This document shows, in pieces, positions 8,932 to 9,896 of a stretch of DNA of 64,000 nucleotides. The position numbers were made by a program, and so were the translations under genes. The notes beneath the pieces are model-generated. The model made no database searches and was not told where the DNA came from. It worked only from the letters and a program-made list of their open reading frames with translations. Positions within the stretch are counted from its first letter, which is position 1. Every line of letters begins with the position of its first letter. Source of the stretch: Aliiruegeria lutimaris (GTDB taxonomy: Bacteria > Pseudomonadota > Alphaproteobacteria > Rhodobacterales > Rhodobacteraceae); the NCBI RefSeq assembly GCF_900099935.1, contig NZ_FNEK01000023.1, positions 1 to 64,000 on the forward strand, given 5' to 3'.

Positions 8932-9059
8932 CAACAACATGCTTCCCGCTCCGAGCCTTGCACTCCCGAGAACGCGGAGTTGCATCGGAGGCGTGCAGTT
9001 ATCGGCTTTGCCGCATGTTATGGGCCGCGAAACACGGTTACGGTCGCGTCAAAGCCGGG

Positions 9060-9149: not shown

Positions 9150-9896
9150 ATGAATGCGAGTGTCGATTTCGGAGGCAATGACAAGATTGAGCCGGTTACC
9201 ACCGTGCCAGCGGCTTCCTGGGGCGACACGCCCGCGCCGAAACTGCCCGATTACCTGGTCGACGTTTACACTTGGGCCTATGTCGCGCCGAACATGGTTG
9301 AACTGCTGGACCGGGAAGTCGTCGTGGCGACGATCCTCTGGATGCAGCAGAACAAGCTGATGCGCGCCGCGAGGGACGAAATCACACCGGGCGATCGCGT
9401 GCTTCAGCCGGCTGCCGTGTACGGCAAGCTCGTCAGCCACCTGGCCAAGAAGGTCGGCCCGGACGGTGAATATAGCGTCACCGATATTCAGAACGTCCAG
9501 ATCGAGCATGTGAACCGCAAAATCGCCGATCTGCCGCAAACCCGCACTGGCATCTGCGATGCACGGACCACGGGCGAAGGGCTCTATGACGTGGTAAACT
9601 CGTATTTTCTGATGCATGAGGTTCCCAAGGACTACAAACACGCCATCGCCAACAATCTCGCCAGCCGGGTGAAACCTGGCGGCAAGCTTATGTTCGTTGA
9701 CTACCACGAGCCGGTGATGTGGCATCCGATGCGTCCGATCATCTGGCTGGTCTTCAAATGGCTGGAGCCGTTCGCGAAGGCGCTGTGGAGCAATGAGCTT
9801 TGGGACTACGTCGAAGACAAGGACAAGTTCGAGTGGCGCAAGGAGACGATCTTTGGTGGGCTGTACCAAAAGGTTGTCGGCGTTCGGAAGGCCTGA
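9150..9896 (+). CDS. rquA: Rhodoquinone biosynthesis protein RquA (SAM-dependent, methyltransferase fold)
   Basis: A 248-residue protein that I recognise as RquA, the enzyme needed to convert ubiquinone to the low-potential quinone rhodoquinone. The diagnostic blocks are LPDYLVDVYTWAYVAPNMVELLD, the altered SAM motif VLQPAAVYGKL in place of the usual DxGxGxG, YFLMHEVPKDYK, and PGGKLMFVDYHEPVMWHPMRP. The last two match class I methyltransferase motifs in order. GGAAAGGG sits seven bases before the ATG at 9150. The gene stands alone, with an inverted repeat upstream and an AT-rich patch (9955-9995) downstream that suggests acquisition by transfer. The call rests on recalled family sequence. A plain quinone or lipid methyltransferase is the alternative. 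Confidence 0.8.
   Translation: MNASVDFGGNDKIEPVTTVPAASWGDTPAPKLPDYLVDVYTWAYVAPNMVELLDREVVVATILWMQQNKLMRAARDEITPGDRVLQPAAVYGKLVSHLAKKVGPDGEYSVTDIQNVQIEHVNRKIADLPQTRTGICDARTTGEGLYDVVNSYFLMHEVPKDYKHAIANNLASRVKPGGKLMFVDYHEPVMWHPMRPIIWLVFKWLEPFAKALWSNELWDYVEDKDKFEWRKETIFGGLYQKVVGVRKA

Follow-up and report, generated by a model that had tools for sequence, protein, structure and literature searches.

Rhodoquinone is a low-oxygen electron carrier, made from ubiquinone by the enzyme RquA in other bacteria, and Lonjers 2012 is reportedly the reference for the RquA of Rhodospirillum rubrum. The R. rubrum protein alone turns ubiquinone into rhodoquinone, with SAM as the amino donor and Mn2+ (PMC9814641), and two Asp residues, D118 and D143, have been located at its SAM site (Neupane et al. 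2022, PMC9814641). Within the Rhodobacterales, rquA was reported by Stairs et al. 2018 in 6 of 513 genomes; the gene does not lie near other quinone biosynthesis candidates and often occurs within 15 genes of respiratory genes (PMC5953543). RquA, its chemistry, its patchy spread and its occurrence in Rhodobacterales are thus already known. The present analysis deals with a further member of this family, encoded in a window of 64,000 nucleotides from Aliiruegeria lutimaris (contig NZ_FNEK01000023.1), and with its distribution, its genomic site and its possible function.

Family assignment and SAM-site residues

The open reading frame located at 9150-9896 on the forward strand starts with ATG at 9150 and stops with TGA at 9894-9896, and encodes a protein of 248 amino acids, exactly as described in the first-pass annotation, which had identified it as rquA. 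Judged from its sequence, it is a genuine rquA, which adds one member to an already described family, and the profile search, the phylogeny and the comparison of residues all agree on this identity. The protein scores 293 bits (E 1.4e-87) on NF038261 (rhodoquin_RquA), the curated NCBI equivalog model for RquA, well above the cut-off of 175 bits, and its residues 32-245 align with positions 1-217 of the 218 positions of the model. The next-best family, UbiE, gives 32 bits versus a cut-off of 378, and Pfam returns general methyltransferase domains, with weak matches to Methyltransf_12/25. According to the family searches, carried out gene by gene and also used for all absences from the genome given below, this is the single RquA above the cut-off in the 5.8-Mb genome.

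A sequence comparison with the PDB yielded no significant match. The AlphaFold2 model (pLDDT 78.6, pTM 0.78, with residues 1-23 below 50) finds its closest solved folds among the SAM methyltransferases, including the SAM-bound Coq5 from yeast (4obw).

Three sequence blocks singled out in the first-pass annotation were recovered in the protein, namely VLQPAAVYG, MHEVPKDY and FVDYHEP. In the alignment, VLQPAAVYG (residues 84-92, codons at 9399..9425, forward strand) occupies the position of motif I and replaces the usual class I motif, which reads LLDVAGGTGD in the UbiE homologue of the same genome. The claim that this motif is specific for RquA holds for its type and not for its exact letters: most of the collected RquA sequences follow the form LQxAxVYG, LQVACVYG being the commonest, and the exact string VLQPAAVYG is the version of the Aliiruegeria/Tropicimonas genus. 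Close variants, LQPACVYG and LQAAAVYG, were found in other RquA proteins. The Asp residues encoded by codons 112 (9483..9485, forward strand) and 137 (9558..9560, forward strand) are the counterparts, by motif and spacing, of D118 and D143 of the R. rubrum enzyme (PMC9814641); the 25 residues that separate them correspond to an identical spacing in R. rubrum, and the surrounding motifs match as well. Both residues are invariant in an alignment of 13 sequences, together with the HE-P and FVDY blocks. In small alphaproteobacterial genomes, divergent RquA-like proteins (L063-L073) which pass or approach the RquA cut-off display an altered motif I, e.g., LQFGATFG or LQLGIASG.

The phylogeny proposed in the first-pass annotation was built with IQ-TREE from 68 proteins, consisting of 56 RquA and 12 non-RquA methyltransferases, among them the genome's own UbiE homologue; the named R. 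rubrum RquA is absent from this tree. RquA and non-RquA methyltransferases are split with a support of 100/99, and the protein of the window falls on the RquA side; some non-RquA proteins form long branches, and the order among them is unsure. If the protein were instead a class I methyltransferase of the UbiE/UbiG or another type, with no more than a resemblance to RquA, the general class I fold and the weak UbiE and Methyltransf_12/25 matches would also be expected. However, such an enzyme would hardly account for the tree split, the different motif I and a UbiE score of 32 bits where 378 are required, in a genome which possesses a UbiE homologue as a separate gene (296 bits, itself below the curated cut-off of 378), and this explanation is considered extremely improbable.

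Within RquA, the Aliiruegeria and Tropicimonas proteins form a single clade (100/100) carried by a long stem (0.88). Elsewhere in the family, three further RquA occupy two places in the tree (L008 with L135, and L010) and none of them joins the genus clade, which makes more than one transfer or loss of RquA in this family probable. In addition, another alphaproteobacterial genome (G453) apparently harbors two intact RquA genes, L056 on contig C64 and L075 on contig C33, which are placed apart in the tree; with a contamination estimate of 5%, the assembly may be a mixed one.

Distribution, genomic site and upstream region

The nearest named relative of the RquA under study is that of Aliiruegeria sabulilitoris (96% identity), followed by those of Tropicimonas and other Aliiruegeria. 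An intact rquA occurs in all nine Aliiruegeria/Tropicimonas genomes, including that of the window, and 4 of the 395 genomes of the family, sampled at about one per genus, exceed the RquA cut-off. The first-pass annotation had regarded the gene as patchily distributed and laterally transferred, which agrees with its scattered occurrence in the family and not with its fixed, syntenic presence in the genus. Its view of a gene standing alone among unrelated genes is borne out by the neighborhood, which comprises luxR, aroQ and an FAD oxidoreductase gene upstream, and a DksA/TraR zinc finger gene followed by phoB-phoU-pst downstream.

The same site, with rquA lying between a luxR side and a phoB-phoU side, is found in the nine genomes and in A. 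sabulilitoris. Depending on the genome, the luxR side often contains aroQ and sometimes the FAD oxidoreductase gene, the phoB-phoU side contains pst where it was read, and extra genes sometimes intervene. The tsf gene follows beyond luxR in every genome except one, where the stretch read showed no tsf. No clean empty site was identified, and five relatives possess tsf-luxR and, at the position of rquA, lack the phoB block. Since the gene is fixed and syntenic in the genus, any transfer must predate the genus; the sequences compared most likely reflect an rquA acquired before the diversification of the genus and retained since, and the conservation of intact orthologues at a common site in 9/9 genomes points to selection to keep the gene. 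A recent lateral or plasmid-borne origin was rejected, no rquA match being found among 72,556 plasmids and the site being common to all nine genomes.

Truncated 5' pieces of rquA were also detected in two other members of the family (L133:6933-7340 and L134:7726-8076), where they directly follow a similar membrane-protein gene; in the former, a gene for an FAD-dependent oxidoreductase comes immediately after the piece. Both look like decaying copies, i.e., losses of rquA.

When the sequences upstream of rquA are aligned across the genus, two blocks, GnTTTGCCGCATnTT and TAnGGTC, stand out as conserved in otherwise diverged DNA, at a constant spacing of about 20 poorly conserved bases. The genus form of the pair reads TTTGCCGCATnTT-N19-TAnGGTC, devoid of an FNR box, and corresponds in the window to TTTGCCGCATGTT-N19-TACGGTC at 9007..9045 (forward strand), a putative promoter/activator element conserved in the sampled genus members. 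The first block accumulates 4 mismatches in total over the nine genomes, versus at least 22 in 2000 shuffles, a crude shuffling which ignores common descent. The layout of the element is reminiscent of a promoter with TAnGGT as the -10 region, whose -35 region is overlapped by an activator site.

In the whole genome, the full element is matched only at rquA. A regulon for the TTTGCCGCAT element was considered and discarded, as no copy other than that at rquA gives a full match, and the single site with 3 mismatches lies within chance (4 control hits). FNR control of rquA was similarly rejected: no TTGAT-N4-ATCAA-like site with up to 3 mismatches occurs in nine of the ten upstream regions, and only weak ones in the tenth. 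It may tentatively be proposed, as a rather speculative extension, that rhodoquinone synthesis in the marine Aliiruegeria/Tropicimonas is a fixed genus trait driven by a dedicated promoter and a non-FNR activator binding TTTGCCGCATnTT, and would form a single-gene, separately controlled branch of low-oxygen respiration.

Quinone pathway and predicted function

The host is predicted to make ubiquinone, the substrate of RquA, from the presence of UbiT, UbiU, UbiV and the UbiE homologue, the ubiquinone synthesis proteins checked individually. The genes ubiT, ubiU and ubiV, of the O2-independent ubiquinone synthesis, are adjacent on contig C138 and all three exceed their curated cut-offs. Their occurrence in a genome with rquA fits a survey of the Pseudomonadota, in which the O2-independent pathway was found in 73 of 84 RquA-bearing genomes (PMC11707229). 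In the ubiTUV cluster, ubiT is closely preceded by an FNR-like palindrome, TTGACTTCGGTCAA (L136:7176-7189). For menaquinone synthesis, the family search covered menD, for which no match exceeded the cut-off.

With respect to the fumarate reductase-type complex that the first-pass annotation suggested looking for, the genome contains one complex II, sdhCDAB, with an SdhA scoring 949 bits on TIGR01816. A second SdhA-like match is NadB, encoded between nadA and nadC, and a third is an FAD protein of 457 amino acids; once these matches were sorted, the family search left no separate fumarate reductase flavoprotein in the genome.

By analogy with the R. rubrum enzyme, the protein would most likely bind SAM together with a divalent metal ion (Mn2+), and an amino group from SAM would replace a methoxy group of ubiquinone to yield rhodoquinone. 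The lower-potential rhodoquinol could then transfer electrons between NADH dehydrogenase and the single complex II (sdhCDAB), which would run backwards as a fumarate reductase under low oxygen; this is predicted to maintain redox balance and to allow proton pumping under oxygen shortage. The reading of this locus as a bona fide RquA, which aminates ubiquinone to rhodoquinone used with a reversed complex II, is given a probability of about 0.93. The long stem of 0.88, the absence of a dedicated fumarate reductase and the absence of an FNR box at rquA speak against this mechanism. A literature search found neither biochemical nor quinone data on this protein, and no report of rhodoquinone appeared among the hits on the quinones of Aliiruegeria and Tropicimonas.

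That the gene is a true RquA by descent, with a rhodoquinone-forming activity changed or lost in the genus, is an unlikely alternative, suggested by the length of the genus stem and by the LQPAAVYG variant of motif I. It is also suggested by one Desulfobacterota rquA which gave no rhodoquinone in E. coli (2026 survey, PMC13386864), a case implying that sequence alone is not a proof and that the gene is not equivalent to the product. Such a change would, however, be hard to reconcile with a gene kept intact and syntenic in all nine genomes and with the invariance of the SAM-site Asp, HE-P and FVDY blocks; in addition, LQPACVYG and LQAAAVYG occur in RquA proteins elsewhere. The rhodoquinone-forming RquA remains the preferred reading.

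Comparison with described systems

The reliable presence of rquA is extended here to a whole marine genus of the Roseobacteraceae. Its members are predicted to be capable of rhodoquinone synthesis when oxygen is low, a trait which routine quinone profiles of aerobic cultures might overlook, and the regulation of rquA can be approached through the element conserved upstream. The protein shares the class I SAM fold and a predicted quinone substrate with the UbiE/Coq5 ubiquinone C-methyltransferases, and differs from them by its motif I and its phylogenetic position. It resembles the RquA of R. rubrum in belonging to the equivalog family NF038261, in the altered kind of motif I and in the identical spacing of the two SAM-site Asp residues, a comparison made by motif and spacing and not by percent identity; unlike the R. 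rubrum enzyme, it stands on its own long-stemmed branch and its activity is a predicted one. The rquA genes reported by Stairs et al. 2018 (PMC5953543) belong to the same order and show the same patchy presence; neither Tropicimonas nor Ruegeria is mentioned in the main text of that study. Beyond it, the modest novelty of the present locus consists of the genus-wide fixation of rquA at a conserved site, together with a conserved upstream element.
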